Below the pieces are notes generated by a model. The model was not told the DNA's origin, did no database searches, and saw only the letters and a program-made list of their open reading frames with translations. A stretch of DNA of 38,853 nucleotides, taken from the NCBI GenBank assembly GCA_014879545.1, contig JACSRV010000113.1, positions 1-38,853 on the forward strand, read 5' to 3'. Position 1 is the stretch's first letter. Every line of letters starts with the position of its first letter. Position numbers and translations under genes: made by a program. Of this stretch, positions 3 to 37,260 are shown in pieces. The DNA comes from Chitinophagaceae bacterium (lineage in GTDB: Bacteria; Bacteroidota; Bacteroidia; Chitinophagales; Chitinophagaceae).

Positions 3-203
3 CTGGATGTGCTGAGTGTGCTGGGTGTGACCAAGAACAGCATACTGACTGCACCGACACCGGCAGCAAAGACCGCATATGAGACCATTCTGAACAATCA
101 GACTGTGATCTATCAGGCGGCGTGGAACCTGAAGCCAAATCTGGCGACAAACAGAGCCCTGATAAAGGCTAAGTTGTTGGAATTTGCAGCGACCATCTAT
201 TAA
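3..203 (+). CDS. C-terminal end of an unrecognised protein (cut by window edge)
   Basis: An open frame enters from the left edge and stops with TAA at 201-203, giving the last 66 or so residues. The visible part is mixed helix-like sequence ending in ...LLEFAATIY; it has no membrane segment, cysteine motif or sorting signal. I do not recognise the family. The next gene begins 38 bases downstream on the same strand, so the two may be co-transcribed. A GTG at 9 could serve as a start, but the frame is open up to the edge, so truncation by the window is more likely. Function unknown. Confidence 0.5.
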   Translation: MDVLSVLGVTKNSILTAPTPAAKTAYETILNNQTVIYQAAWNLKPNLATNRALIKAKLLEFAATIY

Positions 204-9915: not shown

Positions 9916-10941
9916 TCACAACCCCTGGAATTGCCGGAGGAAGCGAACATCGTTCTGAGAATATAGACGGAGATCGTTCACCTGGTATTTGATCTGGGTG
10001 ATACGCTCTACGCCCATACCGAATGCGAAACCGGAATAAACCTCAGGGTCGATGCCGAAGTTGCGCAGGAGGTTGGGGTGTACCATGCCGCAACCGAGGA
10101 TCTCGACCCAGCCGGTGTGCTTGCACAGACTGCAGCCGGAACCACCACATACGGTACAGGAGATATCCATTTCGGCACTTGGCTCAGTGAACGGGAAGTA
10201 GGACGGGCGGAAACGCACCTTGGTATCGGGGCCGAACATTTCTGTAACGAAATAATAGAGCGTTTGCTTGAGATCGGCGAACGATACATTTTTATCAACG
10301 TACAGTCCTTCGAACTGATGAAAGAAGCAGTGTGCCCGGGCAGAGATAGTTTCGTTGCGATACACACGGCCGGGGCAAATAACACGAACCGGAAGCGGAG
10401 TGGTCTCGAGGATGCGCGCCTGAACTGACGATGTGTGGGTGCGTAATACCCAATCGGGGTTTTGCGCTACGTAAAAAGTGTCCTGCATGTCGCGAGCTGT
10501 ATGATTCTCGGGCATGTTGAGCGACGTAAAGTTATGCCAGTCGTCCTCGATCTCGGGACCGGTAGCGACACTGAAACCGATCTTGCTAAAGATATCTACA
10601 ATGCGATTCTCGACAATGCGCAGCGGGTGGCGCGTGCCAATAGGCAGTGGCGCACCGGGGAGACTGGTATCAATGGCCGCAGCATTGGCGTTGCCTTCGT
10701 CTTTGAGATGGGCGAACTGCTCGTAGCGACCCTCGGCAAGTTGTTTAAATGAATTGAGCAACATGCCGGCTTCTCTACGTCCTTCCGGCGGGACGTTCTT
10801 CATTTCATTTGCCAATAATTTGACAATGCCCTTGGTGCCGAGGAACCTGATACGAAATTGCTCGAGGTCGGCGGCGTTGGCGGGGTTGAAAGAATTAATT
10901 TCCTGCTCGTAGGGCAGAATCTGTTCCTGTAAGGATGCCAT
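9916..10941 (-). CDS. pheS: Phenylalanyl-tRNA synthetase alpha subunit
   Basis: A 341-residue catalytic alpha subunit of class II PheRS, which charges tRNA-Phe together with PheT. Visible are the N-terminal coiled-coil arm, motif 1 region IEDDWHNF, motif 2 HQFEGLYVD, and motif 3 GFAFGMGVERI near the C-terminus. I start it at 10941 (MASLQEQI) because the frame upstream to 11004 encodes a hydrophobic stretch foreign to PheS. A perfect TAnnTTTG element lies only 6 bases before that ATG, which supports this start. pheT is not adjacent on the left; the right neighbour is the phage-like block on the opposite strand. Confidence 0.96.
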   Translation of the reverse strand: MASLQEQILPYEQEINSFNPANAADLEQFRIRFLGTKGIVKLLANEMKNVPPEGRREAGMLLNSFKQLAEGRYEQFAHLKDEGNANAAAIDTSLPGAPLPIGTRHPLRIVENRIVDIFSKIGFSVATGPEIEDDWHNFTSLNMPENHTARDMQDTFYVAQNPDWVLRTHTSSVQARILETTPLPVRVICPGRVYRNETISARAHCFFHQFEGLYVDKNVSFADLKQTLYYFVTEMFGPDTKVRFRPSYFPFTEPSAEMDISCTVCGGSGCSLCKHTGWVEILGCGMVHPNLLRNFGIDPEVYSGFAFGMGVERITQIKYQVNDLRLYSQNDVRFLRQFQGL

Positions 10942-10947
10942 AAGGAA

Positions 10948-10955
10948 CAAAGATA
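10948..10955 (-). promoter_or_regulatory. -7 promoter element of pheS
   Basis: On the - strand this reads TATCTTTG, a perfect TAnnTTTG match, ending 6 bases upstream of the ATG, so the mRNA may be leaderless. A matching -33 TTG was not found. Confidence 0.45.
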
Positions 10956-11244
10956 TTATTTCTACGGGAACCATGAGGGAATGCAGGTGCAGGATATTCA
11001 GCAAAAATTGCGTTAATATGAGCTGCTACAACAGAGACAAACGAAAGAAAGGGGAACATGTGGCGTGCAAAGCAGAATGAAATATGTAAGCAGACTGAGT
11101 ATGAGAAGATTGGGAGCGAAAAAAAATCTATGATAAGAAGCAGACTGTCAACGATGTGGCAACAGGAGCGAATGACAGAAACGTGATTTGCGGGGCAGTG
11201 GAATGCAGAAGACCTTTGTGTCACAAAACAACGAAATCCCTATC
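10956..11244 (+). other. Spacer between pheS and the phage-like block, with two tiny overlapping frames
   Basis: No clear gene and no TAnnTTTG element facing the phage-like operon. Two short basic frames occur: 20 codons from ATG 11018, and 18 codons from an ATG at 11077 overlapping the first stop (ATGA). They may be remnants of a lost upstream gene or chance. A frame from a TTG at 11188 joins the protease frame. Confidence 0.3.
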
Positions 11245-12237
11245 ATGAGTGACAAATTGAAAAAAGCAGAGCGGAGTTATGTACTCTCGGACAGCAGTGT
11301 GAACGAATATGGGTTCAGGCTATTGACCTCGGGTTACGAGATCGAATCATTCAGGAAGAATCCGATCGGATATTATATGCATAAGCGAGAGGATGGCATA
11401 GTGCTGAAATGGGAAGACCTGCGAGTGGAAGGCGACCAGGTGCTGGGTGTGCCGGTGATAAATCTGGCAAACGCGAGAGGAGAACAGACATTGCAGGAAG
11501 CAGAAAACGGTTTCCTGAACGCAGCATCGGTGGGGCACATAGTGGTGCTGGAGTATAGTCTGGATAAAGAACTGATGCTGCCGGGCCAAACGGGACCAAC
11601 GATAACGAGGTGGTACAATAAGGAGTGCAGCCTTGTGGACATACCCGGGAACTGCAATGCGCTGACCCAATTGTATGACGCCAACGAGAACGAACTGAAC
11701 CTGGCTGATATGGGCGGGAGCAGGCAGATGTACCCGATGGGCAACCATGAGTTGCTGGCGACGATGGCCACTCATCTGAAAATGGAAAAGACAAGTGACG
11801 TACATCAAATAGGCAAGGCTGTGGAGCGACTGGCACAGAAGGCGACACAGCTGGAAGCAGAGAATCAATTGCTGTATGAAGAAAGGGCCCGACTGACAGC
11901 TACATTGGATGAAATACAAGCGAGCCGAAAGAAGGCCGAGGTGCAATCGCTGCTGGTGAGAGCACTGGAAGACAAGAAAGTGACCGTGGAATTGCGTGAC
12001 CGGCTGGCCACCGACTATGCCGGTAATCCTGACGGACTGCGCACACTAATAGCGGCAATGCCTGCATACCGGTCGATAGCCGAACAACTGAGCCAGCCGA
12101 AACAGGAGGGCAATATGGCAGACTGGACCTGGGACGACTATGAACGTAACGACCCCAGCGGGAAAAAGTTAATGGAACTGCGCGCAACAGACGCCGCTAA
12201 ATATCAGGAGCTGTTCAACGGCAAATTCAACGCCTGA
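11245..12237 (+). CDS. Prohead protease fused to a scaffold-like C-terminal region
   Basis: A 330-residue protein. The N-terminal half resembles HK97-type prohead proteases of Bacteroidota phages: SDSSVNEYGFRLL, FRKNPIGYYMHKRE with His46, and NAASVGHIV with Ser95, the likely catalytic pair. Residues ~193-235 form a charged coiled coil (QLEAENQLLYEERARL). The C-terminus ends in an acidic-basic tail of the kind seen in scaffold proteins (LMELRATDAAKYQELF). In phages this protein scaffolds capsid assembly and then cleaves itself and the coat. ATG 11245 was preferred over 11203 because similarity starts just after it. The capsid gene follows after 118 bases. No portal or terminase precedes it, which is abnormal. 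Confidence 0.78.
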   Translation: MSDKLKKAERSYVLSDSSVNEYGFRLLTSGYEIESFRKNPIGYYMHKREDGIVLKWEDLRVEGDQVLGVPVINLANARGEQTLQEAENGFLNAASVGHIVVLEYSLDKELMLPGQTGPTITRWYNKECSLVDIPGNCNALTQLYDANENELNLADMGGSRQMYPMGNHELLATMATHLKMEKTSDVHQIGKAVERLAQKATQLEAENQLLYEERARLTATLDEIQASRKKAEVQSLLVRALEDKKVTVELRDRLATDYAGNPDGLRTLIAAMPAYRSIAEQLSQPKQEGNMADWTWDDYERNDPSGKKLMELRATDAAKYQELFNGKFNA

Positions 12238-12355
12238 GCACCGTAAAAAAGCAACAAGAATTTTTTGTAGAAAAAGCTACATGCGCAGTTGTGCAGGGAT
12301 GCTAACGTGTGCAACATTGAGACATAATTCTATCACCAAACAATCATAAAAAAAG

Positions 12356-13270
12356 ATGGCAATTCAAAAAGAGATATGGCAGGACCATATAGAGGGAAAT
12401 CTATTCAAGAACAATGAGTTTCTGCTGGCGTCGACAGATGCAAGCCAGTATGTGCTGCAAGGAAAGGTAGTGCACATACCACAGGCGGGAGCAACAGCGA
12501 CTGTAGTAAAGAACCGGGCATCGGTGCCGGCAACAGTAGTGCAACGAACAGACACAGATGTAACCTATGTGCTGGATGAGTTCACCACGGATCCGATACT
12601 GATACCGAATGCGGAGAGTTTTGAACTGAGCTACAACAAGCGCGAAAGCATCCTTGCCGAATATGAGTCGTCGCTGAGGCAGACAATAGCAGAGAACCTG
12701 TTGATAGACTGGAGTCCGACGGGAGCGACAGGAACAATCATACGAACGACAGGCGTATCGACAGCGACGCACCTTGACGACACGACCGGTAACCGAAAGA
12801 AGCTGACGGTGAATGACCTGAAATACGCGCAATTGCAGATGAACAAGCAGAACATACCAATGGAGGGAAGGTATGCCCTGATAAGTGCAGACATGTTTCA
12901 ACAATTGACAGATGATATGTCGGCGACTCAATATCGCGATTTCAGCGCAGCCTATGATGTGAAAGATGGTGTGTTGGGACGACTGTTCGGTTTCAATATC
13001 ATGATGCGGGGAAGTGTAGTGAGCTATGATAACGCGACACTGCCGGAGGTGAACAGTTACGGAGCGCTGGCAGCAGCAGATGACAATGATGGTGTGCTTT
13101 GCTGGCAGGTGAGTGCAGTGGAACGTGCGCTGGGACAGATCACTTTCTTTGAACGAATAGGCGACCCTACGTACTATGGTGACATTTATAGTGTGGGTGT
13201 GCGAATGGGTGCAAGGAAACGGAGAAGCGATGCGAAGGGAATTGTGGCCATAGTGCAGGCCGCCGCTTAA
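12356..13270 (+). CDS. Major capsid protein (HK97-fold)
   Basis: A 304-residue protein with the pattern of Bacteroidota phage coat proteins: an N-terminal segment with repeated aromatics (EIWQDHIEGNLFKNNEFL), a beta-rich part (VVHIPQAGATATVV), a long helix (FELSYNKRESILAEYESSLRQ), the A-domain-like ALISADMFQQL, and a C-terminal IYSVGVRMGARKRR segment. It forms the icosahedral shell. Its presence separates this block from headless tailocins and eCIS. It directly follows the protease/scaffold gene, the usual phage order. The assignment is from pattern recognition; no structure comparison was made. Confidence 0.8.
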   Translation: MAIQKEIWQDHIEGNLFKNNEFLLASTDASQYVLQGKVVHIPQAGATATVVKNRASVPATVVQRTDTDVTYVLDEFTTDPILIPNAESFELSYNKRESILAEYESSLRQTIAENLLIDWSPTGATGTIIRTTGVSTATHLDDTTGNRKKLTVNDLKYAQLQMNKQNIPMEGRYALISADMFQQLTDDMSATQYRDFSAAYDVKDGVLGRLFGFNIMMRGSVVSYDNATLPEVNSYGALAAADDNDGVLCWQVSAVERALGQITFFERIGDPTYYGDIYSVGVRMGARKRRSDAKGIVAIVQAAA

Positions 13271-13279
13271 AAGACGAAA

Positions 13280-13552
13280 ATGTTATGTGAAATAAAAATA
13301 TGGATACTCATTGGGGCGGCCGGTGTAATGGCAACAATACTGGGCTTTACGATAAAGGTGATCACGGATCAGGTGATAAAGAGGTTGGATGAAATAGTGA
13401 CTGAGTTGAAACAGCTGACACAAGTGACCACCGTGCAGGGACAACAGATACAGGGGCTGAAAGACCAGGAAGCCATGATACACCACCGCCTCAATGAGCA
13501 TGCCGAACGACTACATGCGCTGGAGACGAGCGCAATACTTTATAAACACTAA
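13280..13552 (+). CDS. Small membrane-anchored coiled-coil protein
   Basis: A 90-residue protein starting 9 bases after the capsid gene. It has one N-terminal membrane helix (IWILIGAAGVMATILGF, residues ~7-23), then a helical coiled-coil-like region (VTELKQLTQV, GQQIQGLKDQEAMI). This architecture resembles XhlA-type phage membrane proteins associated with lysis, and also phage membrane-associated accessory proteins. It could aid release of particles or anchor them, but the position between head and tail genes is not typical for lysis. Function is inference only. Confidence 0.6.
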   Translation: MLCEIKIWILIGAAGVMATILGFTIKVITDQVIKRLDEIVTELKQLTQVTTVQGQQIQGLKDQEAMIHHRLNEHAERLHALETSAILYKH

Positions 13553-13564
13553 AATCAAGAAAAC

Positions 13565-13993
13565 ATGTTCTGTAACAAAATGAGAAAGAAGATCCGCCAG
13601 CTGGTGCAGCACTTTGACGAGTATGTTGAAGCACATGCAGAAGCTGCACTGCAGATAACAACGTCGCTGAAGGAAATGCTGGAATCGCCGGCGGCAGATG
13701 TAGTGACATTGCTGATACCAGGGGAAGCAGATGATCTGCTGAAACGACATATAATAACCGCACTGGAGAAAGCGGTAATGACCCTGACTGCAGTGAATAC
13801 ATGCGCGGGGGAAGGAGATATAAATGCAAGGATCAAGTGCCTGATGACTGAGCTGGCAAAAGCTGCACCTGAAGTAAGGGACGCGTTGTTGCATAAGCTG
13901 GCAAGCCTTATTACCGCAGCATTGGATGGAGGCAGGATGAAGCAACGGGATTATGATCTGTATGTTCAGGCAAAATATACCGCATCGAGGTAG
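13565..13993 (+). CDS. Helical protein of unknown function between head and tail genes
   Basis: A 142-residue, almost entirely helical protein without a signal peptide or membrane segment, containing runs such as KKIRQLVQHFDEYVEAH and LLHKLASLITAALDGG. It occupies the place where phages usually encode head-completion or tail-terminator proteins, but no such family is recognised. It begins 12 bases after the previous gene, so it is part of the operon. It could be a connector replacement, a chaperone or a cargo protein; I cannot tell. Confidence 0.55.
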   Translation: MFCNKMRKKIRQLVQHFDEYVEAHAEAALQITTSLKEMLESPAADVVTLLIPGEADDLLKRHIITALEKAVMTLTAVNTCAGEGDINARIKCLMTELAKAAPEVRDALLHKLASLITAALDGGRMKQRDYDLYVQAKYTASR

Positions 13994-14070
13994 GGCGATT
14001 GCCGCACCGGTGGGTAATGTTTCGGGAACAAGGGGACAACAACGAACTGTAAAACAAAAAACAAGAGAGA

Positions 14071-15249
14071 ATGGGTAGTGTAAATATTACGTTGGCCAAC
14101 GGCCAATTGGGCGGAACACTGCTGACCAATGATGGGATAGCAGGTTTGGTAGTGACCGGGGTGACCGAGGGTGCCTATACGGTGGGTACACCGATATTGA
14201 TAACGAGTGTGGCTTCTGCTAACTCCGCAGGGATAACAGAGACAGGAAATGCATTTGCCCTGCGACAGGTGAAGGAGTTTTATGCACAGGCAGGGAGTGG
14301 CGCGCAATTGTATCTGATGCTTGTGCCAGCAACGATGACTGTGGATGAGGTGGCTCAGGTGAGTGAGACAGCAGGAGCCAGGAAATTGCTGGACTATTCG
14401 GGAGGCAGGATAAAATTGCTGGGAGTGCTGAGTGACGACGCGGCTGTGATTGCAGCAGGATCGGTGGTGACTGTGACCAATGGTTTGAATGAGGATGTAT
14501 ATGCTGCGGCGACCAACATGGCTGCACTTGCGCAGGAGTACTTTGAAGCACACAAGCCATTCAGAGCTGTGATCGGGGGAACAAGTTATTCGGGTACAGC
14601 AGCAAGTCTCACTGATATGACAGCGGGCGGGTCGAATAACCGGACTGCTATTGTGATAGGAGATACGGTTGCGGGTAAGGCGGCATGTGTGGGGTTGGTA
14701 TTGGGTGTACTGTCAACAGTGCCTGTGCAACGAAAGATAAGCAGGGTTCGTAACGGACCACTTTCGAATACCGGTGCATTTCTTGCGACAACAGCACTTG
14801 CTTCTGTTGCAGAAAGCTTGCCGGTAATAGCAGGAAAGGGATTCATCACATTCATTACCTACCCGAACACAACAGGTTATTATTTCTCAGGTGATCCGAC
14901 CTGTGCCGCAACGACGGACGATTACAGTGTGCTGGCGAGGGGACGAGTGATAGACAAGGCACATGTGCTGGCATATTCAACATTTGTGCAGGTAGTGGAT
15001 GATGAAGTGCCGGTGACCACAGATGGAACATTGGAACCCGGATTCTGCAAATGGCTGAGCCAGCAGATCGAGAACCTGATCAATAATACGATGACCGCTA
15101 ACAGGGAGATAAGTAGCGTGACTTGTTTTATAGACCCGGAGCAGAATATACTAAGTACTAACCAACTGAATGTAGTGATAGGAATTGTGCCGATAGGCTA
15201 CGCGACGCAGATAGAGATCAGCCTTGGTTTCAATAATCCAGCAATTTAG
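14071..15249 (+). CDS. Tail sheath protein (DUF2586-like)
   Basis: A 392-residue protein resembling the contractile sheath family DUF2586 found in Bacteroidota myophage-like clusters. It starts with MGSVNITLANGQLGG, which would dock to the tube or neighbours. The middle contains the alpha/beta core (AQLYLMLVPATMTVDEVAQ, RIKLLGVLSDDAAVIA). The end, IEISLGFNNPAI, is the typical strand that links sheath subunits. It is the motor of a contractile tail. It lies immediately upstream of the tube gene. The frame is intact, so the tail is probably still able to contract. Confidence 0.82.
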   Translation: MGSVNITLANGQLGGTLLTNDGIAGLVVTGVTEGAYTVGTPILITSVASANSAGITETGNAFALRQVKEFYAQAGSGAQLYLMLVPATMTVDEVAQVSETAGARKLLDYSGGRIKLLGVLSDDAAVIAAGSVVTVTNGLNEDVYAAATNMAALAQEYFEAHKPFRAVIGGTSYSGTAASLTDMTAGGSNNRTAIVIGDTVAGKAACVGLVLGVLSTVPVQRKISRVRNGPLSNTGAFLATTALASVAESLPVIAGKGFITFITYPNTTGYYFSGDPTCAATTDDYSVLARGRVIDKAHVLAYSTFVQVVDDEVPVTTDGTLEPGFCKWLSQQIENLINNTMTANREISSVTCFIDPEQNILSTNQLNVVIGIVPIGYATQIEISLGFNNPAI

Positions 15250-15289
15250 AAGGACTGAATAATCATTAACGTAAAAAAGAATCAAAGGG

Positions 15290-15724
15290 ATGCCGACAAT
15301 ACCATTTTTCGATAGTAAAGACTGTGAATGGGCAGACATGACCGTAACAGTGGCGGGTTCGAACCTGACCAAGATAAGGGGACTGAAATACAAGGCCCTG
15401 AAGGATAAACAATTGCTACATGCAGCAGGTGATGAGCCCATAAGCATTCAGGGTGGGAAGCGCACCTATGAGGGCCATATAAAAGTGCTGAAGGGTGCGC
15501 TGGATGATATGAACAAGGCGGCGCTGCTTGCGGCTGGCGATGATATACTTGATCTGCAATTTGATATAGTGATCACGTACAAGGCTAAGGGATCGAGAGG
15601 CTTGCAGACAGATACCCTTGTGGGTGTAGAGATAAAGGAGTTTGAGAAAGGATGGGACCAGGGTGCGAAGCATATGGATGTGACGTTGCCGATCGTATTC
15701 ATGAAACTTGTTTCTGTACAATAA
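15290..15724 (+). CDS. Tail tube protein
   Basis: A 144-residue beta-rich protein just after the sheath, the standard position and size for the inner tube of contractile tails. Landmarks are the N-terminal strand WADMTVTVAG, the basic loop GGKRTYEGHIKVL, and the C-terminal strand MDVTLPIVFMKLVSVQ. Hexamers stack to form the rigid tube propelled by the sheath. It sits in the operon 40 bases after the sheath gene and 12 bases before the chaperone gene. Confidence 0.78.
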   Translation: MPTIPFFDSKDCEWADMTVTVAGSNLTKIRGLKYKALKDKQLLHAAGDEPISIQGGKRTYEGHIKVLKGALDDMNKAALLAAGDDILDLQFDIVITYKAKGSRGLQTDTLVGVEIKEFEKGWDQGAKHMDVTLPIVFMKLVSVQ

Positions 15725-15736
15725 TCTTTCAAAGAA

Positions 15737-16060
15737 ATGAACGAACAGAACAGCAGGCCGACAGGTAGTGTATCAGATGGCCAAATAAAAGAATGGAAGG
15801 CTACCCACAAGCATGGTATCTACTCGATAGAAGTTGAGGGGCATATTGCCTACTTCAAGAACCCCGGAAGACATGAGTTGAATTGCGCGATGAGTAAGGC
15901 AGATAATGAGCGAGCGCTGGACATGTATGAAGAGCTGGCATCGTTGACCTTCATTGGGGGAAGTGATGAACTGCTGCGCGACGATCAGATGTTCATAGGT
16001 GTTTGTCAGGAGTTGAAGGTGAAACTGGAAGGGAAAAAGGCGGTACTGGTAAACTTATAG
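15737..16060 (+). CDS. Tail assembly chaperone, short (unshifted) form
   Basis: A 107-residue protein between tube and tape measure, the place of P2 gpE or lambda gpG. It has a strand-rich N-terminal half (HGIYSIEVEGHIAYFKNP) and a helical part with acidic residues (ADNERALDMYEELASL). It ends at a TAG at 16058-16060, just after the slippery run GGGAAAAAGG at 16031-16040. A second open frame in -1 phase continues to 16227. Chaperones of this kind coat the tape measure while the tail tube polymerises. The family call is from position and frameshift architecture, not from sequence similarity alone. Confidence 0.7.
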   Translation: MNEQNSRPTGSVSDGQIKEWKATHKHGIYSIEVEGHIAYFKNPGRHELNCAMSKADNERALDMYEELASLTFIGGSDELLRDDQMFIGVCQELKVKLEGKKAVLVNL

Positions 16061-16227
16061 AGGGGTCGCGCGGAGGTCCGGCGCACGATCCCGTTGGATT
16101 TATGGAGACGATACTAGAATATCATTTGCCGGGTTTGGACCACCGAGAGTTGAGTGACGAGGAGTTTGCAAGGAAAGTAGCGCATCTGAATTACATACTT
16201 CAACGGGAGCGGCCTTCAGATGAGTAA
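15737..16227 (+). CDS. Tail assembly chaperone, long form by -1 ribosomal frameshift (predicted)
   Basis: Slippage of one base back at AAG (16037-16039, read as AAA 16036-16038) would join residue 101 of the short form to the downstream frame from GGC 16039, giving a product of about 163 residues ending ...QRERPSDE. The added part holds the acidic helix LSDEEFARKVAHL. This mirrors lambda gpG/gpGT and P2 E/E', where a minor long form binds the tape measure. Without slippage the extension could start only at a weak TTG 16003 or the internal ATG 16102, which argues for frameshifting. Confidence 0.6.
16031..16040 (+). other. Probable -1 frameshift site (slippery run)
   Basis: GGGAAAAAGG is read in zero frame as GGG AAA AAG G. 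The A-AAG step allows tRNA-Lys to re-pair after moving back one base. It closely resembles lambda's GGGAAAG site in base content. A GC-rich potential stem, roughly 16067-16084, lies downstream, further away than is usual for a stimulator. Confidence 0.55.
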
Positions 16228-16250
16228 GCGTAGGAAAAAGGAGAGCAGAG

Positions 16251-17378
16251 ATGGAGCATGGAATTACGAATGGTGACAAACAAAGGTATGCTGCCAGGGA
16301 AACTGATGGATTGAACAGGATAATTGAGTTGACAGGTCAATTCTTGAAATTGAGGAACACAGGACTCATAATAAGCGGAATCGGTTTATCATCGGTATTC
16401 AGATTTGTGAGGGTTGGCGGGAAAGCAGTATTCCCCAAAGGAGAAAAAGTGCAATCGGGAGTTAGACAACATAATGATGAAGATCTGATCTCGGGGCGCG
16501 GAAAGACAAATGGTCTGAATATTGGAAGTAGCGATATAGGGACGAGAAAACCAGAGATGTACATTCAACAAATGCCAGTTTCCTTTGAGCAGAATAGTTT
16601 GCGAAGTCAGATAGTAAGTGGAAGGAGACATCTATTCCAAGTATTGAAGTCAGAGTTGCCCTCCAAGAGATTGACAAACCTCAATTCTCATGATGAAAAG
16701 GGTCCGGATGAATACCGACAGCAGCCAGCAAGGGAAGCAAAGGAGGGTCAGAGTTTCACCGGGGATGTTGCAGCCGGCCATCGGTCAAAAAATATCAGGC
16801 CGATCAAACATCAAATGCTGAGTGTAGCCCCCTTGTTCGCCGGACAACGGACAATAGTAAGGAAGGAGAAAACAAAGGGGATAGGGCCGTTGGGAAAAGA
16901 AGTTGGATCGAAGTTTGTATATGACTTACGTACACCACGCAATCTTGAGAAGTCTCGTTCGAATGGAGTACAAAGGTTATCTCAAATCGGCATGGTTCCA
17001 TCTCCCGGTATGTTGCAAAGTGGCTACAAACCAGCTGTCGAATCGCTAAAGATCTCGCGAAAATATTTAGCGCAATCGGTTCGACCTCTTTCCTTAGGGG
17101 CCGAAATGCCGATGGGTGGCAAGCTATTGTCAGATGACCGGCAACCCGAACAGACGTTATTCGACTTTCCGGCAGCCAATGCTGGAGGAAAAGTGAGAAG
17201 AGGAAGGGACGGCAACGCGGATCAGCGAAACCACTCAGTGAAAGTAGAGATCAATCATCCATTAATCGGATCGTTGACGATCCAGAACAGCCGGGGTGAC
17301 GGAGGGGTGTATGAGTTGCGTTCGAAGATAGAAGGTGTATTGTTGGATATTCTTGAAAGCGTAAATACAATAGGGTAA
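16251..17378 (+). CDS. Short tape-measure-like protein
   Basis: A 375-residue, strongly basic protein rich in Gly, Ser, Arg and Gln, located after the chaperone frameshift gene where the tape measure must be. The end (VKVEINHPLIGSLTI ... KIEGVLLDILESVN) resembles the C-terminal docking helix of tape measures in Bacteroidota phages. The middle has no long coiled coil or hydrophobic helices; one short apolar segment lies near residues 38-48 (TGLIISGIGLS). At roughly 0.15 nm per residue, a tape of this length would give a tail near 55 nm, well below ordinary myophages. It could be an internally deleted tape measure or a specialised cargo-like protein. Confidence 0.5.
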   Translation: MEHGITNGDKQRYAARETDGLNRIIELTGQFLKLRNTGLIISGIGLSSVFRFVRVGGKAVFPKGEKVQSGVRQHNDEDLISGRGKTNGLNIGSSDIGTRKPEMYIQQMPVSFEQNSLRSQIVSGRRHLFQVLKSELPSKRLTNLNSHDEKGPDEYRQQPAREAKEGQSFTGDVAAGHRSKNIRPIKHQMLSVAPLFAGQRTIVRKEKTKGIGPLGKEVGSKFVYDLRTPRNLEKSRSNGVQRLSQIGMVPSPGMLQSGYKPAVESLKISRKYLAQSVRPLSLGAEMPMGGKLLSDDRQPEQTLFDFPAANAGGKVRRGRDGNADQRNHSVKVEINHPLIGSLTIQNSRGDGGVYELRSKIEGVLLDILESVNTIG

Positions 17379-17381
17379 GAG

Positions 17382-18032
17382 ATGGCAAAAGTAAGTTTGA
17401 GTCTGGTGGATCTCTATAAGGAGGCATTTGGGATGAGGCCGGAAGCGTTCAAGCCAAATTTCCCGAAAACACATGGCGAAGTGGATGGAATGAGGACGGG
17501 TTCGGGAATGGGTGGATCTCCGTATTATGAAGATGGGATTAATGGGAGAGTTTTCATGCCGGTCACAATCAGTTTTGAGGATGATGGTCAAATGGCATTC
17601 GGGGGTGCAGGAAGTAATTCAAACGCAGGGCAGAAGCCCAATAAATCCTGGCTGTTGCCTAATCCGATGGTGAGCATAGAGAGCAGGAAGCACATCATTG
17701 ATACTGCATTGACCGAGCGGAGAGGTACGGTAAAGGAGATGATTAATACTTCGGACTATGAGATAATGATAAGGGGATTGATTGTTGGGTCCACCCATGA
17801 TTTTCCTGAGGATCAGGTAGCGATGTTAAGAGATGCATATGAACAAAACAAACCTGTTTCAATCGCGTCAGCAGTTACAGATATATTCTTGTTGAGACCG
17901 GACAGGAGCGGTAGTGATAAAGTGGTGATAGCAGAGATGCGTCTTCCGGTGATACGCGGCGTAAAAAATGTGCGTCCGTATGAATTGAAGTTGATAAGTG
18001 ATGAGACGTTTAACCTGATATCAATTGAGTGA
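17382..18032 (+). CDS. DUF6046-like phage tail/baseplate protein
   Basis: A 216-residue protein starting 3 bases after the tape-measure candidate. It resembles a family (DUF6046) encoded beside hub proteins in Bacteroidota phage-like clusters. Recognisable parts are the Gly-rich N-terminal region (MRTGSGMGGSPYYEDG), NKSWLLPNPMVSIES, EMINTSDYEIMIRGL and the closing YELKLISDETFNLISIE. It probably joins tube to hub, like LysM/gpX-type proteins elsewhere; that role is inferred from position. Its stop TGA shares a base with the ATG of the next gene (TGATG), indicating translational coupling. Confidence 0.6.
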   Translation: MAKVSLSLVDLYKEAFGMRPEAFKPNFPKTHGEVDGMRTGSGMGGSPYYEDGINGRVFMPVTISFEDDGQMAFGGAGSNSNAGQKPNKSWLLPNPMVSIESRKHIIDTALTERRGTVKEMINTSDYEIMIRGLIVGSTHDFPEDQVAMLRDAYEQNKPVSIASAVTDIFLLRPDRSGSDKVVIAEMRLPVIRGVKNVRPYELKLISDETFNLISIE

Positions 18033-19054
18033 TGTTTGTACTGACCAGTAAGATAGCAATAGGTGGATTCATGTTTACCACCGTAAACGAAGTGGTTATA
18101 AGGAAGAGCGTGCACAGTGTTGTAGAGACCGCTGAAGTGCATATCCCCGCCGTGGCCATGATAAGACGAAAGGGAATAGCACAACCCGAAAGAAGAATGA
18201 CATCTGAACTATTCAGAGCTGGTGACGCAGTAGTGATACAACTTGGATACAATGGGTCGCTTAAAACGGAGTTTACGGGTTATGTGAAGAATGTAGTGTG
18301 CGACAAGCATGTAACCATTGAATGCGAAGGTGTAAGTTGGTTGTTAAGGCACACTGTGCCGGAGAACGTAGTGGACGCAAGGGACATTCAGAGCGCTATA
18401 GTTGCCATAAAAAAGACACTTCCGGGTTTGCATGTTAAGTGCAAGGACAATGTGGCGCTGACGAGTGCATTTTCAGCCGGTATGTCGGGGCTAGATGTGG
18501 TGAACGCGATCAACACGTACAGTGATGGCAACATAAGGTGTTTTATGGCAGAGCGGGATGTGTTGTGGTGCGGGCGCTTCTATAGCGCTTGCGAAACGGC
18601 TGAGGTATTTAATTCGGGTGGCGTTGTACAATACAAGTTGGGATATAATGCGCTTAGAGAAAGTGAGCTGAAGGTACACAATACTGAAGCAGCACCTGCA
18701 CAGGTTACCTACATGAGAAGGCCTATCAATGGCGTTATTGAAACCGGCACGACAGCTAAGGCAGGAGACACAGGAGCAAACTATGTGCGGATGCTGAATC
18801 ATGTGGCAGGGAGACAAGGCCTGAAGCAACTTGCTGACGAGCGAATGGCCCGGTTCAGGTATAAAGGGCTTGAAGGTCGGCTTACAGCGTTTTTGCAGCC
18901 GTATGTTCAGCCTGGATTCAGAGTGTCGATCATAGATAGTCTGAACAAAGACAGAGAAGGGACCTATTTGGCTGAAAGTGTGGAGGTGAGGTTTGGTGTA
19001 GGCGGAGGCAGGCGAATAATTGAGGTTGGGCCAAGAGTTGCAAAAATGAAATAG
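18032..19054 (+). CDS. Tail hub protein (gpD / late control D-like)
   Basis: A 340-residue protein with features of P2 gpD and T4 gp27-type hubs: N-terminal barrel strands (EVVIRKSVHSVVETAEVHIP), GDAVVIQLGYNG, FTGYVKNVV, a middle domain with repeated sheets, and a C-terminal YVQPGFRVSIID segment. The hub trimer closes the tube and holds the spike. I use the ATG at 18032, which overlaps the previous stop by one base, rather than the GTG three bases earlier. The spike gene follows after one base. Confidence 0.72.
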   Translation: MFVLTSKIAIGGFMFTTVNEVVIRKSVHSVVETAEVHIPAVAMIRRKGIAQPERRMTSELFRAGDAVVIQLGYNGSLKTEFTGYVKNVVCDKHVTIECEGVSWLLRHTVPENVVDARDIQSAIVAIKKTLPGLHVKCKDNVALTSAFSAGMSGLDVVNAINTYSDGNIRCFMAERDVLWCGRFYSACETAEVFNSGGVVQYKLGYNALRESELKVHNTEAAPAQVTYMRRPINGVIETGTTAKAGDTGANYVRMLNHVAGRQGLKQLADERMARFRYKGLEGRLTAFLQPYVQPGFRVSIIDSLNKDREGTYLAESVEVRFGVGGGRRIIEVGPRVAKMK

Positions 19055-19055
19055 G

Positions 19056-19604
19056 ATGAATAGAAGTAGTGTGAGGATAATAGACGGATTGAAGGAGCTG
19101 TCACGAAGGCCATATGAAGTAGTTTCCGGCAAGGTCGTTGGCGGGAGTATCGATTCGGACGCAAACACAATGAGTGTGGTGTTATCAGCAAACGGCCTTG
19201 AAATAAAGGATGTTCTCCTGAAGGCTACGAGTGACGGCACGGATGGAGTGATCGGTATCCCTGAGGATGGTAGCGATGTGGTGATAGGTAGTATTGACGG
19301 GCCGGGACAATGGGTTCTGCTTCAGGCAAGCAGCATAGCTAAGTGGGAGGCGAGGTTGCATGGCCGATCGGTTGTAATAACTCCTGAAGCTATTAAAATT
19401 GACACAGGATTGGCCACAGTAAAGGTTGCGGAGAAAGTAACTGTGAGATCGGGCACGGAAGATCTTTACACACTGTTGCGGGATCTGCTTGATAGCATAA
19501 AACTCATCACTGTTACGACCCCCGCGGGGCCCAGCTCTGTCCCAGTGAATGTGGCAATGTTTGACGCGATATCGTTGAGATTAAACAATTTGTTGACGGC
19601 ATAA
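19056..19604 (+). CDS. Baseplate spike / puncturing protein (gpV-like)
   Basis: A 182-residue protein with an N-terminal OB-fold-like stretch (VSGKVVGGSIDSDANTMSVV, IPEDGSDVVIGSIDGPGQW) followed by short beta repeats (VVITPEAIKIDTGLATVKV) suited to a trimeric needle. It ends in the region TTPAGPSSVPVNVAMFDAI that is typical of Bacteroidota phage spikes. No His-based iron motif and no enzymatic domain are seen. It would sit on the hub and breach the target surface. It starts one base after the hub stop. Confidence 0.7.
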   Translation: MNRSSVRIIDGLKELSRRPYEVVSGKVVGGSIDSDANTMSVVLSANGLEIKDVLLKATSDGTDGVIGIPEDGSDVVIGSIDGPGQWVLLQASSIAKWEARLHGRSVVITPEAIKIDTGLATVKVAEKVTVRSGTEDLYTLLRDLLDSIKLITVTTPAGPSSVPVNVAMFDAISLRLNNLLTA

Positions 19605-19616
19605 GGAAGTGATGAT

Positions 19617-19916
19617 ATGGCACGGGAGATGAAAGATATTTCGCTGGATGAAGGAGATGATCTGTTGATCGAAAATGGAGACATAGTAATAGCGGAAAGT
19701 ACAGCTACGCACCAGCGGCAATTGTTACTGAACAATAAAGGTGATTTTAAGGAAAACCCTACGGTTTGCGTTGGTGTGTTCAACTATCTGAATGATGAGA
19801 ATTTTGACGGAATGATACGGGCCATCAATGTTGAGTTTTGCAGGGACGGTATGATTGTTTCGGATATCAGGCTGAACAAAGACGGATCAATAGAGACAGA
19901 TGCGGTTTACAAGTAA
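19617..19916 (+). CDS. gp25/gpW-like baseplate wedge protein
   Basis: A 99-residue acidic protein with the short DISLDEGDDLLIENGDIVI beginning and the TATHQRQLLLNNKGDFKENP block seen in Bacteroidota homologues of the gp25/gpW wedge family. In T6SS, eCIS and phages this protein starts sheath assembly at the baseplate. Size and position between spike and wedge genes agree. No membrane or signal segments are present. Confidence 0.7.
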   Translation: MAREMKDISLDEGDDLLIENGDIVIAESTATHQRQLLLNNKGDFKENPTVCVGVFNYLNDENFDGMIRAINVEFCRDGMIVSDIRLNKDGSIETDAVYK

Positions 19917-19928
19917 ACATACACGGAG

Positions 19929-20873
19929 ATGAAAAAAGGAATAGTACAGCCCAATCAGAGTTTACTGGATGTTGTTATTACTGAATATGGAACGGTGGGG
20001 GCGGCATTGAGTGTAGCAATGGTCAATGGAATAGAACTTGGAAGCGTACCATTTGCCGGGACGATCGTGAACCTACCCGAAGTCCTGGGTAATGAAGTAG
20101 ACATACAAACAATAGAGTATCTGCGCAGAGACAAGATCGAATTGGGAACCGCATACACTGCCGGATTGAGCTATTGGATAGTGTTTCGTCCGGTAATTTA
20201 TGCTGTACCGACAGAAACGGGTGATCCGCATGTGATGGGTTATTACCGATTTGAGATGCAGGGCACTGCTGATTTTTTGAATATCAATCCGATTGACGTT
20301 GACTTCCCCGGTACCAATCGACTCAACTACCAAACGGAAGAGAGATACATTCTAGGACTTGCGCCGGAGAGTGCATTGCCGGAATCTGCAACCGTAATGT
20401 CAGGAATCATTATCCCGTATAAGTTGCCCTGGACTGTTGGATTCGGATACATGATCGTGTGGAGTGACCTGAGTGCACCTATCACCACTGCAACGTATGG
20501 GGATATCGCCGGCAATACGGCATATGTGGCACCGGTTACGGTTTTTGACAATACGAGCAATACAGTTGTAGCCCATTTACTTGGAGACATAAGGATTGAA
20601 TTGGTATCATCTACAAACACAAATGCGACGCTGCGGTTAATAAGGCAGCATCCCCCAATTGCTCTGACCAATTTCAGCGAGTATAGTATGGAGTGGCTGG
20701 GTGTAGCGAGTGGCGGCGTTCCCGATCCATCAGATCCGGAAAATCCGGATAAGACATTGGTGACGCTCAATGCAGGGTTGCATACACTGGGATTGAAGAC
20801 GACATACATGAACACAGCAGCCGGTGTTATCTATCCGAGTTCTGCATTTACAATGGTTATCACAGTTGAATAG
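19929..20873 (+). CDS. LysM-like baseplate wedge protein (gp53-like position)
   Basis: A 314-residue protein. The first ~60 residues look like a LysM module (IVQPNQSLLDVVITEYG, VNGIELGSVPFAGTIVNLP), the fold also used by T4 gp53 as an assembly joint rather than for peptidoglycan binding. The remainder is beta-rich without a recognised family; it could be a wedge arm or an adaptor for the fibre. It is encoded 12 bases after the gp25-like gene and 6 before the gpJ-like gene. Confidence 0.55.
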   Translation: MKKGIVQPNQSLLDVVITEYGTVGAALSVAMVNGIELGSVPFAGTIVNLPEVLGNEVDIQTIEYLRRDKIELGTAYTAGLSYWIVFRPVIYAVPTETGDPHVMGYYRFEMQGTADFLNINPIDVDFPGTNRLNYQTEERYILGLAPESALPESATVMSGIIIPYKLPWTVGFGYMIVWSDLSAPITTATYGDIAGNTAYVAPVTVFDNTSNTVVAHLLGDIRIELVSSTNTNATLRLIRQHPPIALTNFSEYSMEWLGVASGGVPDPSDPENPDKTLVTLNAGLHTLGLKTTYMNTAAGVIYPSSAFTMVITVE

Positions 20874-20879
20874 AGAGAA

Positions 20880-21710
20880 ATGGCAAGGAAAATAAAGGAG
20901 ATACAAGAGCAGATAATAAGCACGATGGCTACAGATCCGCATTTGAGCACATACACGTGGAGCGATAGTAAGGTGGCTATGTGGCGTTTGTGGACTTTTG
21001 TCGTTGCTGTGTGTATATGGACACTGGAGGAGTTGTTTGATGCGCACAGAGAAGAGATGGAGTTAAAGATCAGTTCTATGCGTCCGCACAAATTATCGTG
21101 GTATGTAAACAAGGCAAAAGCTTTTCAATATGGTGTGGCACTACCGCCGGATAGCGATGAGTATTCCGAACCGACCGAGGATGAGAGTGTGGCAATTGTC
21201 CAATATGCAGCCGCGATAGAGTTGTTGAATATGATCAGGATAAAAGTGGCAAAGGGGCCAGCTACAGCGTTGGAGGGGTTGACAGCACCTGAGCTTAGTT
21301 CGTTTACTACGTACATGAACAGAATAAAGGATGCGGGTGTGAGGTTGCATATCACAAGTGATGCACCGGATACGTTCAGAGTGTCGTTGAAAATCTTCTA
21401 TGATCCGCTGGTGCTCACGGCAACAGGTTCAAGGATCGATGGCTCGGCGGCAAATCCGGTTATGGATGCTATCAAAAAATTTCTGGCAGACCTTCCTTTC
21501 AATGGCGTGTTTATCCTTAATAAGTTCATAGCCGCACTGCAAGCAGTTGACGGCGTGAAGATAGGACAGGTGCTGGCAGCGCAGGCAAGCTACGCATCAA
21601 CGCCATTTGTTCCTATCACCGTTAAGTATATTCCGGACGCAGGTTACATGAAACTGGACGAGGTCCATTTTGCGGCCAACATTTCTTACGAGGCGTACTT
21701 GCCAGAGTAA
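20880..21710 (+). CDS. Baseplate J-like wedge protein
   Basis: A 276-residue protein whose N-terminus matches the start of gpJ/gp6-type wedge proteins in Bacteroidota clusters (IWTLEELFDAHREEMELK, MRPHKLSWYVNKAKAFQYG). The later part carries the domain around FRVSLKIFYDPLVLTATG and the C-terminal FVPITVKYIPDAGYM. Dimers of such proteins build the ring that triggers sheath contraction. The hydrophobic stretch near residues 37-50 (WTFVVAVCIWTLEE) is probably buried, not a membrane helix. Confidence 0.68.
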   Translation: MARKIKEIQEQIISTMATDPHLSTYTWSDSKVAMWRLWTFVVAVCIWTLEELFDAHREEMELKISSMRPHKLSWYVNKAKAFQYGVALPPDSDEYSEPTEDESVAIVQYAAAIELLNMIRIKVAKGPATALEGLTAPELSSFTTYMNRIKDAGVRLHITSDAPDTFRVSLKIFYDPLVLTATGSRIDGSAANPVMDAIKKFLADLPFNGVFILNKFIAALQAVDGVKIGQVLAAQASYASTPFVPITVKYIPDAGYMKLDEVHFAANISYEAYLPE

Positions 21711-21737
21711 AAACCAAAATTCAAACATCGAGTAGGC

Positions 21738-22241
21738 ATGGGATTTTTTGATATCAATTATGATTCGCTGCGCACACAGTTATTGCCGGTGCGGCTGCGA
21801 AACAACAAGATGAAGGCGTGGCTGCGTTGTCTAATTGCGCCAATTAAGTGGTTGCATGTAAAGTTCCTGGGACTGAGGAACAATGACGTTTACACACTGG
21901 CACATACCGGACAGGTGGTTTATCTGGAGGCGGTGTTGAACGATACATTCGATCCTGTGGCGCGTGGAATCATGATAGTTGACGGCAGCTATGAAGACCC
22001 GATATTTACTTATACCATACCCGAGACCGCACCTCATTGGTTGGGTCTGGTAGGTGAGACTGGTATGGCCGGATTTGTTACACCAGTTTCCCTATACACT
22101 ACTGCCGAAACTGCATTGCTGGGAGACGCCTTTGTAGTGAGAGTTCCTTCAGCTGTTGTTTTTGATGAGTCAAGAATGCGTGCGTTGGTGAACAGGTACA
22201 GAATTGCAGGCAAAGGTGTTTACAGTATAGTGGTTTACTAA
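21738..22241 (+). CDS. gpI-like baseplate/fibre-attachment protein
   Basis: A 167-residue protein directly after the J-like gene. Its N-terminal part (LLPVRLRNNKMKAWLRCLI, IKWLHVKFLGLRNND) and the middle GQVVYLEAVLNDTFDP resemble gpI-type proteins that link wedges to tail fibres in Bacteroidota phages. The C-terminus is beta-rich and ends in IAGKGVYSIVVY. Position between wedge and fibre genes supports the role. Confidence 0.6.
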   Translation: MGFFDINYDSLRTQLLPVRLRNNKMKAWLRCLIAPIKWLHVKFLGLRNNDVYTLAHTGQVVYLEAVLNDTFDPVARGIMIVDGSYEDPIFTYTIPETAPHWLGLVGETGMAGFVTPVSLYTTAETALLGDAFVVRVPSAVVFDESRMRALVNRYRIAGKGVYSIVVY

Positions 22242-22268
22242 ACTAATTCAGAAGAAAAAAGGAAAGAC

Positions 22269-23108
22269 ATGAAGACAATAGATTTTACAAAACCGGGAGG
22301 CTTCCCTCTGACACAGGATCAGTTGAATTACCTGCAGTCGGCCTACAAAGAAGCCATTAATGCAGTTGCTGCAATGGGTGGGAGTGGTGCAGTACCTGTG
22401 ATTGTTAGCGGAATGGTAGTCGCCAACCCGTCCACCGGTGATTATTCGATAACCGATGGGTGGTTCTATTACAACGGTGAGCTGATCAGGTGTGTGGCAT
22501 CGTCGGTATCAGGTGCAAGTGGTGGTTCAGAAGCGTATATTTCGATAGTAGAAGTTTCTTCTCCGTTAGTTTTTTTTGACGGCAGTACGCCCAATGTGAT
22601 CAATGAGAAGACTGCAAACCTGCTGGTGTTGCCATCGGGAACTACTTCGGACGCAACCAGGTTTCCGTTGGTCGGTCTTACGCCATTTGGAAAACAATTT
22701 GGCATAGCCAACAGAGATGCTGTTTGGAAATCGATTGCCGTGAGCACATCAGTGGCGGAAGGAGGTGTGACCGGTACAGTATATTACAAGAAGGATTACA
22801 CTGCTAATACGCTGCACATAAGGGGAGTACTGACGGCTGCGAACGCGCAGAATTTTGCTGCCTCGCCGGGTTCTCTTTATTATCTGGTGGCCTCATTGCC
22901 GGCTGATTGTACTCCGGGTAGTACCGGGTATTTTGTAGCCACTCAATACTCCGCGTCCTTGTTTAAAGATGACTTGGGGATATCTTGGATTAAACAAATT
23001 AACTGCGGTGTAAATTCGGCTGGTCAACTATTCATAAATTGGATTCGACCAGAGGTCGGATTAGGTAGTTATGCAATCAATCTCAGCACATCGATTGTAC
23101 TCGAATAA
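22269..23108 (+). CDS. Putative tail fibre / receptor-binding protein
   Basis: The last gene of the block, 279 residues. Its N-terminus (FPLTQDQLNYLQSAYKEA) looks like the baseplate-binding part of fibres. The rest is Gly/Ser/Thr-rich beta sequence (SSVSGASGGSEAYISIV, LHIRGVLTAANAQNFAASPG) without an enzymatic signature. It would determine what the particle sticks to. Its TAA stop (23106-23108) abuts the mreD stop codon on the other strand, with no terminator between the two transcription units. Confidence 0.6.
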   Translation: MKTIDFTKPGGFPLTQDQLNYLQSAYKEAINAVAAMGGSGAVPVIVSGMVVANPSTGDYSITDGWFYYNGELIRCVASSVSGASGGSEAYISIVEVSSPLVFFDGSTPNVINEKTANLLVLPSGTTSDATRFPLVGLTPFGKQFGIANRDAVWKSIAVSTSVAEGGVTGTVYYKKDYTANTLHIRGVLTAANAQNFAASPGSLYYLVASLPADCTPGSTGYFVATQYSASLFKDDLGISWIKQINCGVNSAGQLFINWIRPEVGLGSYAINLSTSIVLE

Positions 23109-23654
23109 CTAGAATCTAGAGTTGTCCTGCTTGGTGAACAGTAACAGGTACACAATAATAAACAGCATGGAGGTGGCTGCCGATGCGGCGGTTTTCAGCA
23201 ACAATTGACCTATGTTGGATAGGTTCCACAGCTCAACGCTGAAAAAAAGAAGGTGATGCAGTATGATGAGAAATGCGCTATAAACCAGAAAAGGCATCCA
23301 ACCCATATTTTTGGTGGATGGCTGTAGCCCGGAATACTCCGAAAGATTACGTGGCAACAGGGCACTCAATACGTTTGTTCTCAGGTAAGCAATAAGCACA
23401 GTAGCGCAAGCATGCATCCCGGCCGTGTTGCCGAAAGAGTCGACCGTGGCACCCAATACAAAACCTGAGACAAGCAATGCCCAAACCGGAGTTTCAAAAG
23501 GAAGTAAAAGAATAAACAACGGGTATATATAGGGTATGAAAACAGGGAAACCGGACGGCTCGCTCCACCACCGCAGCGTGATCTTATTGAGGATCAGCAC
23601 CTGTAGCGAAACTATGATGCAGAACCTCAGAATATTTTTAAGATACACGTTCAT
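23109..23654 (-). CDS. mreD: Rod shape-determining protein MreD
   Basis: A 181-residue integral membrane protein with several hydrophobic helices and the MreD-like FVLGATVDSFGNTAGMHA segment. It is the third gene of mreB-mreC-mreD and works with MreC in the elongasome that guides peptidoglycan synthesis. It starts 49 bases after mreC. The last codons KQDNSRF end exactly where the phage-like block ends on the other strand. Confidence 0.88.
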   Translation of the reverse strand: MNVYLKNILRFCIIVSLQVLILNKITLRWWSEPSGFPVFIPYIYPLFILLLPFETPVWALLVSGFVLGATVDSFGNTAGMHACATVLIAYLRTNVLSALLPRNLSEYSGLQPSTKNMGWMPFLVYSAFLIILHHLLFFSVELWNLSNIGQLLLKTAASAATSMLFIIVYLLLFTKQDNSRF

Positions 23655-36832: not shown

Positions 36833-37260
36833 CATCATTTCTTATCCCCTCCGGTCTGTTTCCCGTCAGGATCGTGCGAAATTTTTTGTGGTGCGCAGTT
36901 TTGGACGTTTTCATTGATTATCAATGGGTATGTGGGAAGTTCTGCTTCTCACTGCTTCCCAAACCTGCGCAAAACCTGCGCACTTCTGCGCATCCCGAAT
37001 GCTTTCGGGACAAGAGACGAAGTGATTGAAAAACCTAATGCATTCATTTTGCCTCATTTTCTGCGACATCAATACAAGTTACAACCGCGGTTTAAAGCGG
37101 CCAAAAGAAAAATCTATGATAGTGCGGTTTCTGCGGTATCATAGAAAGTTGTTTGCTTGTGTCAAAAACATTTGCGCCAAAATGGGAAGTGAAGAAAAAT
37201 AGACTATAAATTGGTCTATATTTTGCTTAATTTGCTATAAAATGACGAAATAAGAAGTTT
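36833..37260. other. Gene-free spacer with short repeats
   Basis: No supported gene. It contains an inverted repeat TGGGAAG (36933-36939) with CTTCCCA (36955-36961); the hexamer TGCGCA three times at 36966, 36977 and 36987, about one helical turn apart; and the palindrome TCCCGAA (36993-36999) with TTCGGGA (37004-37010). Confidence 0.5.
36993..37010. repeat. Short palindrome (TCCCGAA/TTCGGGA)
   Basis: A 7-pair hairpin with a 4-base loop, of a type that often recurs between genes in Bacteroidota. Only one copy is in this window. Confidence 0.4.

Follow-up and report, generated by a model that had tools for sequence, protein, structure and literature searches.

A block of phage head and tail genes in a Chitinophagaceae bacterium and a DNA-packaging module elsewhere in the same genome appear to be two parts of a domesticated, split Mu-like phage particle, which we believe with moderate confidence acts as a gene transfer agent (GTA). 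The head-tail block (genes A to P) lies between pheS and mreD on contig JACSRV010000113.1 (C241) of assembly GCA_014879545.1 (3.48 Mb in 250 contigs, 87.5% complete); this complete contig of 38,853 bases is referred to below as the window. Both modules exist, are conserved in sequence, and broadly track the host tree. We regard it as highly probable that they encode a functional, host-owned particle that employs its own packaging motor, because the head-tail block is conserved at one site, the genes are under purifying selection, the separated modules are largely retained together, and the two share promoter elements. Transfer of host DNA would be the role of such a particle by analogy with known GTAs and because nothing else to package was found.

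Packaging genes in the same genome

A preliminary description of the window reported that the interval from pheS to mreD contains a protease/scaffold gene, a capsid gene, and contractile-tail genes, all intact, and no packaging motor or portal. Open frames in every block gene, together with profile matches, bear out the first point. The second holds for the window, where profile searches of the block recognized no packaging, portal, integration, repressor, or replication genes, but not for the genome: the suggested search for terminase and portal genes of matching lineage found TerS, TerL, and a Mu-type portal (Portal_Mu) on contig C235. Searches of the genome with Terminase_6N and Phage_portal had given no match, because the portal belongs to another family and the TerL matches no Pfam model; the absence of packaging genes that this empty result seemed to indicate was overturned by the Portal_Mu match and the matching TerL. 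Among the explanations offered in the preliminary description, a GTA-like system with packaging genes elsewhere gains support from these genes, from the genus-wide mreD site, and from low ratios of nonsynonymous to synonymous substitution (dN/dS), while a cargo other than a packaged genome becomes superfluous, since a packaging motor exists.

The C235 module comprises TerS, TerL, a gp36-like adaptor, the portal, and a gp37-like connector, along with two genes without a profile match that encode a secreted-looking 189-aa protein and, on the other strand, a 120-aa membrane protein. Residues of the TerL motifs are invariant in 26 split-lineage sequences and largely common to 6 phage sequences. 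C235 ends within ubiD, and the window starts within a small gene located after ubiD in relatives. A single contig of the closest relative (G034) carries the packaging module, ubiD, the small gene, pheS, and A in that order, with 17 kb between portal and capsid. From these matching contig ends and this gene order, the packaging genes very probably lie directly to the left of the window. The right-flank gene is labeled mreD from gene order, and a Pfam search with it gave no match. The pair encoding the secreted-looking and membrane proteins (L103:5521-6090 and L103:6555-6917) sits inside the packaging module in most carriers.

Conservation, descent, and selection across the genus

We compared 60 genomes including the window's own, 35 from its genus (Flavipsychrobacter-like, Bacteroidota) and 25 from outside it. 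The capsid protein matched in 28 of the 60, all within the genus (28/35 versus 0/25); in G023 and G027 the sole capsid match belongs to a compact prophage of the kind described below. The portal of this lineage occurs in 30 of the 35 genus genomes, with G027 and G033 carrying other portals only, and Portal_Mu as such occurs in 14 of 198 genomes across the order, the window's included. A scan of a named collection yielded 73 loci, of which the closest came from records with Flavipsychrobacter, Taibaiella, Chitinophagaceae, or uncultured Bacteroidetes in the title. The head-tail block is present in the isolate Flavipsychrobacter stenotrophus RB1R16 (L058). Six viral-database contigs of 4 to 14 kb (L021-L025 and L027) correspond to the head-tail block, with pheS attached in three, and are probably host loci catalogued as viruses.

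Conservation in relatives, singled out in the preliminary description as a check, proved extensive. P or a remnant of it adjoins mreD in 31 of the 34 genomes where mreD was seen (15 genomes including the window's, plus 16 of 19 other genomes of the genus that gave a match). P is incomplete in G032 (only the last 65 residues), in G001 (the last 135), in G023 (truncated where the contig ends), and in G005 and G016 (alignment covers only the first half). Neither of two same-family genomes from other genera has P at mreD.

The packaging module is less fixed in position, lying 9 to 128 kb from the head-tail module or on a different contig. It is about 10 kb off and divergent, a phage-like arrangement, in G004, G013, G016, G021, and G028 (G006 is similar); it adjoins ubiD and/or a TPR gene in G000, G034, G002, G029, G010, G009, G019, G007, and G014; and it lies 28 kb off, past mreB, in G024 and G011. 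The largest separations on single contigs are 85 kb (G029) and 128 kb (G002). The preliminary description named terminase and portal genes of the same phage beside a second half of the prophage as a refutation, and this turned out to be half the case: packaging genes are present, close by and divergent in some species, and no transposition, repressor, or replication half was found in the split loci.

Despite this separation, the modules are largely retained together. With G015, G023, and G025 set aside as too incomplete, the head-tail module is present in 28 of 32 genomes, and the lineage portal accompanies it in all 28; of the four genomes without the head-tail module, three (G027, G030, and G033) have no portal of this lineage and one (G032) has it (Fisher P = 0.0008 by a hand count that ignores kinship; P = 0.0065 without G030). 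The three joint absences are losses, because these genomes branch from within the carriers in the rpoB tree. In G033, relatives of both companion genes, encoding the secreted-looking and membrane proteins, remain beside mreD and are likely a footprint of the ancestral packaging module at that site.

Trees were built for rpoB (28 genomes; the window's own rpoB was not found), the head-tail genes (27 rows), the packaging genes (29 rows), and a tail set (17); the head-tail and packaging trees each include 2 compact prophages, which fall on long branches within the split clade and were left out of split comparisons. Of 8 supported splits, 7 are common to the rpoB and head-tail trees, with zero conflict; the rpoB and packaging trees share 7 (of 9 and 10), and the rpoB tree and tail set share 4 of 5. 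Between themselves, the head-tail and packaging trees share 8 supported splits, again with zero conflict. Mantel r values against rpoB were 0.64 and 0.60 (0 of 9,999 permutations; the window's genome stands outside the rpoB comparison).

The dN/dS check suggested in the preliminary description gave low values, 0.010 to 0.127 for 21 genes between the window's genome and G034 (P was left out of this pair). Isolated higher values occur in other pairs (0.22 for C, 0.19 for TerS, 0.17 for lp189), and synonymous distances in these comparisons range from 0.2 to 2. Protein lengths are near-constant between species, with split-locus capsids of 303 to 305 aa except in G031. A disappearing remnant, whose particle genes are retained by chance and slowly lost, would account for the losses or breaks in G027, G030, G033, G032, and G001, the frame break in G031, the disappearance of MuF-like and gpG-like genes, and the endolysin gone from some species. 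We nevertheless hold it to be very improbable, given dN/dS near 0.01 to 0.13 over such synonymous distances and protein lengths that hardly change across species. The decaying prophage of the preliminary description is likewise unsupported in the window's species, although some relatives have lost or broken parts.

The same selection bears on the main rival, a killing particle. PBSX of Bacillus subtilis is one contiguous element encoding a domesticated phage particle with a capsid and a contractile tail. A particle of this type, derived from a domesticated phage, may pack host DNA but would serve to kill competitors via its contractile tail instead of transferring genes. The present system resembles PBSX in its capsid and contractile tail and differs in being split. 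The contractile tail and the divergence at the tail end (O is 77% identical to its G034 counterpart, the capsid 99%) would suit a weapon. Killing by a tail requires neither capsid nor motor, however, and here strong purifying selection acts on TerL, portal, and capsid, and most species retain the two modules jointly. We therefore consider this explanation unlikely.

Promoter elements, dispersed repeats, and block anatomy

The same type of array stands upstream of A and of TerS: an operator palindrome (ATGAYAGNNC-N6/7-GNNCTRTCAT) followed by a promoter-like ACCTTTG element, presumably of the Bacteroidota promoter type. At no more than 2 mismatches, the operator occurs in 12 of 25 regions upstream of A, in 13 of 27 upstream of TerS, and in none of 415 control regions (22 gene sets), and the promoter motif occurs in 17 of 25, 16 of 27, and 4 of 413 (21 sets), respectively; both motifs were derived from the very upstream regions counted, and the counts are descriptive rather than an independent test. 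A and TerS regions resemble each other more within than between genomes (19.2 versus 17.3 of 24 positions; 0 of 9,999 permutations for 17 genomes with separated modules, 167 of 9,999 with adjacent modules), and the operator sequence varies by species in step with both module promoters. Judging from these motifs, a common array probably switches both modules on together. The array also belongs to a dispersed repeat, with sites in 21 of 35 genomes and up to 19 in each (0 to 1 for reversed-pattern controls), and the likeness of A and TerS regions could therefore partly reflect copying of the repeat instead of control by one regulator.

Copies of the operator palindrome (37116-37142; L235-L274) sit in this dispersed repeat family, often with 100 to 500 bp of similarity. 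The window's genome has 7, one of them within the window ahead of an AAA_14/DUF4143 gene. Orphan TerS-family genes (phrog_4151), extended by long additional C-termini, adjoin the repeat, two of them in the window's own genome (L235:261-1196 and L239:1768-2685) and relatives in L248, L253, L254, L264, L273, and L274. The scattered paralogs and operator copies might conceivably act as distributed packaging or control sites, either as TerS-bound points where packaging of the entire chromosome starts or as satellites taking advantage of the particle, though we find this doubtful. With the pattern used, operator-repeat copies were found in none of the system-less genomes G027, G030, and G033, but none were found in nine carriers either, which leaves the link weak. 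In several genomes a TTATCCACA-like sequence, which we take to resemble a DnaA box, precedes the operator upstream of TerS, and the 8-mer TATCCACA taken from it occurs in 13 of 29 TerS upstream regions.

These repeats also bear on whether the modules are still mobile, as a prophage or satellite that was split by assembly or recombination and is mobilized by a helper or dispersed element. Complete Mu-like prophages of the same lineage occur in the genus, and the operator is common to the dispersed repeats and orphan TerS-family genes, both of which fit such an element. Its head-tail module, however, is fixed at one site genus-wide and both modules broadly track the host tree, and we judge continued mobility quite unlikely.

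Within the window, plus-strand genes A to P in tandem, with the overlapping frame Gb, fill the interval between pheS and mreD (Table 1), and block and window have the same G+C content (47.7%). H, K, L, M, O, and P have no profile match of their own and are named from position and relatives. H is 42% identical to its G034 counterpart, compared with 77 to 99% for its neighbors, and its C-terminus is still conserved in many species. The G/Gb overlap is a candidate programmed-frameshift site: CTGGTAAACTT at 16046-16060 is identical in all 26 copies, two of them from compact prophages, ending in TTA in 25 copies and TTG in one, and the form of the 15-base motif with TAG occurs in 44 of 213 loci.

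Table 1. Coordinates of the head-tail block and flanking features in the window, with the basis for each assignment.
Feature	Position	Strand	Basis
Fragment of small gene that comes after ubiD in relatives	9..197	+	tblastn match; gene order in G034 and others
pheS, left neighbor of block	9916-11004	minus	Pfam match
Head-tail operon promoter region	11130..11244	+	ACCTTTGTG element at 11212; operator palindrome degenerate in window's species
A: prohead protease/scaffold	11245..12237	+	phrog_11321 8.6e-56; weak Mu-like_Pro
B: major capsid protein	12356..13270	+	phrog_267 1e-33; dN/dS 0.012 vs G034
C: 90 aa, N-terminal hydrophobic stretch, putatively holin-like	13280..13552	+	sequence; kept in relatives
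D: conserved 142-aa protein, no function assigned	13565..13993	+	sequence and relatives
E: tail sheath (DUF2586)	14071..15249	+	profile match 1.6e-53
F: tail tube	15290..15724	+	phrog_9206 (3e-21) and phrog_4579
G: tail-assembly-chaperone position	15737..16060	+	phrog_19076; position
Gb: frame overlapping G, probably its frameshift extension	16003..16227	+	overlap motif 16046-16060 invariant
H: short gene (375 aa), tape-measure position, fast evolving	16251..17378	+	position
I: DUF6046/baseplate hub	17382..18032	+	profile matches
J: baseplate hub	18029..19054	+	phrog_4930 3.2e-41
K: spike position	19056..19604	+	position and relatives
L: baseplate-wedge position	19617..19916	+	position and relatives
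M: baseplate-region protein	19929..20873	+	position and relatives
N: phage protein without assigned function	20880..21710	+	phrog_38413 7e-68
O: baseplate/tail-end protein	21738..22241	+	position and relatives
P: final block gene, tail-fiber position	22269..23108	+	position and relatives
mreD, right neighbor of block	23109-23654	minus	named from gene order

Phage ancestry and comparison with gene transfer agents

Two compact prophages (G012:C67 and G009:C37) share the structural gene order of the split loci and have capsids 62 to 74% identical to theirs. Unlike the split loci, each forms a single stretch of about 33 kb and encodes, besides MuA/MuB-like proteins, MuF, a gpG-like protein, and a longer tape measure, the transposase label reflecting position and similarity to a Porphyromonas phage transposase; the G012 copy additionally has an S24 repressor and a Gam-like DUF3164. 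Porphyromonas phages have capsids 44 to 48% and portals about 34% identical to split-locus proteins. In Mu-like Bacteroidota phages (Porphyromonas phage012a, BK068093.1; Bacteroides phage p00), packaging genes point away from the protease and capsid genes, an arrangement also seen in some split-locus species. Unlike the split loci, however, these phages have a transposase, MuB, Gam, and a repressor. Phages of the same lineage carry the divergent packaging genes directly upstream of the protease, the place held by pheS in the window. Queries from related phages for MuA-, MuB-, Gam-like, and repressor proteins matched nothing in the fetched split loci, which in this respect are not Mu-like transposable prophages; MuA also gave no match in the window's own genome, a search that had no positive control. 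Nor do the loci resemble a headless tailocin or an extracellular contractile injection system, as capsid, protease, portal, and TerL are present and conserved. A CHAP-type endolysin lies between capsid and sheath in 12 split-locus genomes; a relocated copy was sought in 14 others and mostly not found.

We propose that a Mu-like transposable phage became fixed next to mreD in the ancestor of the genus and lost its transposase, repressor, and replication genes, and that the packaging module may later have relocated in several lineages. The capsid would be filled via the portal and TerL and then gain its contractile tail, and the packed DNA would most likely be pieces of the host chromosome, delivered to sister cells. 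Host DNA is the likely cargo because mobilization genes were not found with either module and the distance between the two reaches 128 kb.

In PMC9662315, GTAs are defined by six features: particle proteins derived from tailed phages, packaging of mostly random host DNA, endogenization (often at multiple loci), inability to package the whole gene set, vertical inheritance with the host, and delivery of DNA to other cells. Tailed-phage ancestry is evident here from profile matches of capsid, protease, sheath, portal, and TerL; endogenization, from the placement of the two modules at host loci, with as much as 128 kb between them on a single contig; and vertical inheritance, from the orthologous site and tree congruence. 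Packaging of the whole gene set is very likely impossible where the modules lie 85 to 128 kb apart (G029 and G002).

Several observations weigh against a GTA. In the window's species the modules are probably about 15 kb apart, and a span of about 28 kb might fit a phage-sized head. G032, 97% complete, keeps TerS, TerL, and the portal but has lost the head-tail module: capsid and sheath were searched for and not found, and unrelated genes follow the 65-aa remnant of P. This genome makes us slightly less confident of the GTA reading overall. G001 has just its 135-aa piece of P at mreD, the capsid gene of G031 has a frame break (possibly an assembly error), and neither module is present in G027, G030, and G033 (G030 being only 59% complete); the system is therefore dispensable. 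Queries for MuF-like and gpG-like proteins matched none of the fetched split loci (other genome parts were unsearched), an absence that counts against a fully phage-like particle unless the genes are located elsewhere. The CHAP endolysin was found elsewhere in only 2 of the 14 genomes searched (one match weak) and not in the window's own. Between the window's genome and G034, H has a dN/dS of 0.48. One supported conflict separates the rpoB and packaging trees, over G012, and another the rpoB tree and tail set. Finally, at 2 mismatches the operator is unrecognizable in about half of the genomes, the window's included.

Like RcGTA, BaGTA, and BhGTA, the split system has phage-derived capsid, tail, and terminase genes that are fixed in the host, often at multiple loci, inherited vertically, and free of replication genes. 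It differs from known GTAs in its Mu-like origin, contractile sheath, and Bacteroidota host; the tails of BaGTA and BhGTA are described as noncontractile. Established GTAs, according to PMC12946183, occur in Alphaproteobacteria, Desulfovibrio, Brachyspira, and Methanococcus, with the addition of a Faecalibacterium element, and GTA-like elements outside Alphaproteobacteria are there termed very few. A literature search found no Bacteroidota GTA, with subscription papers and most preprints outside its scope, so a prior report is possible. If our reading is true, the genus carries an independently evolved, contractile-tailed GTA derived from a Mu-like phage and thus a new origin of particle-borne gene transfer. 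Complete relatives of the ancestral phage persist in the genus, which would make the steps of domestication directly readable, and the named isolate RB1R16 makes the system open to testing.

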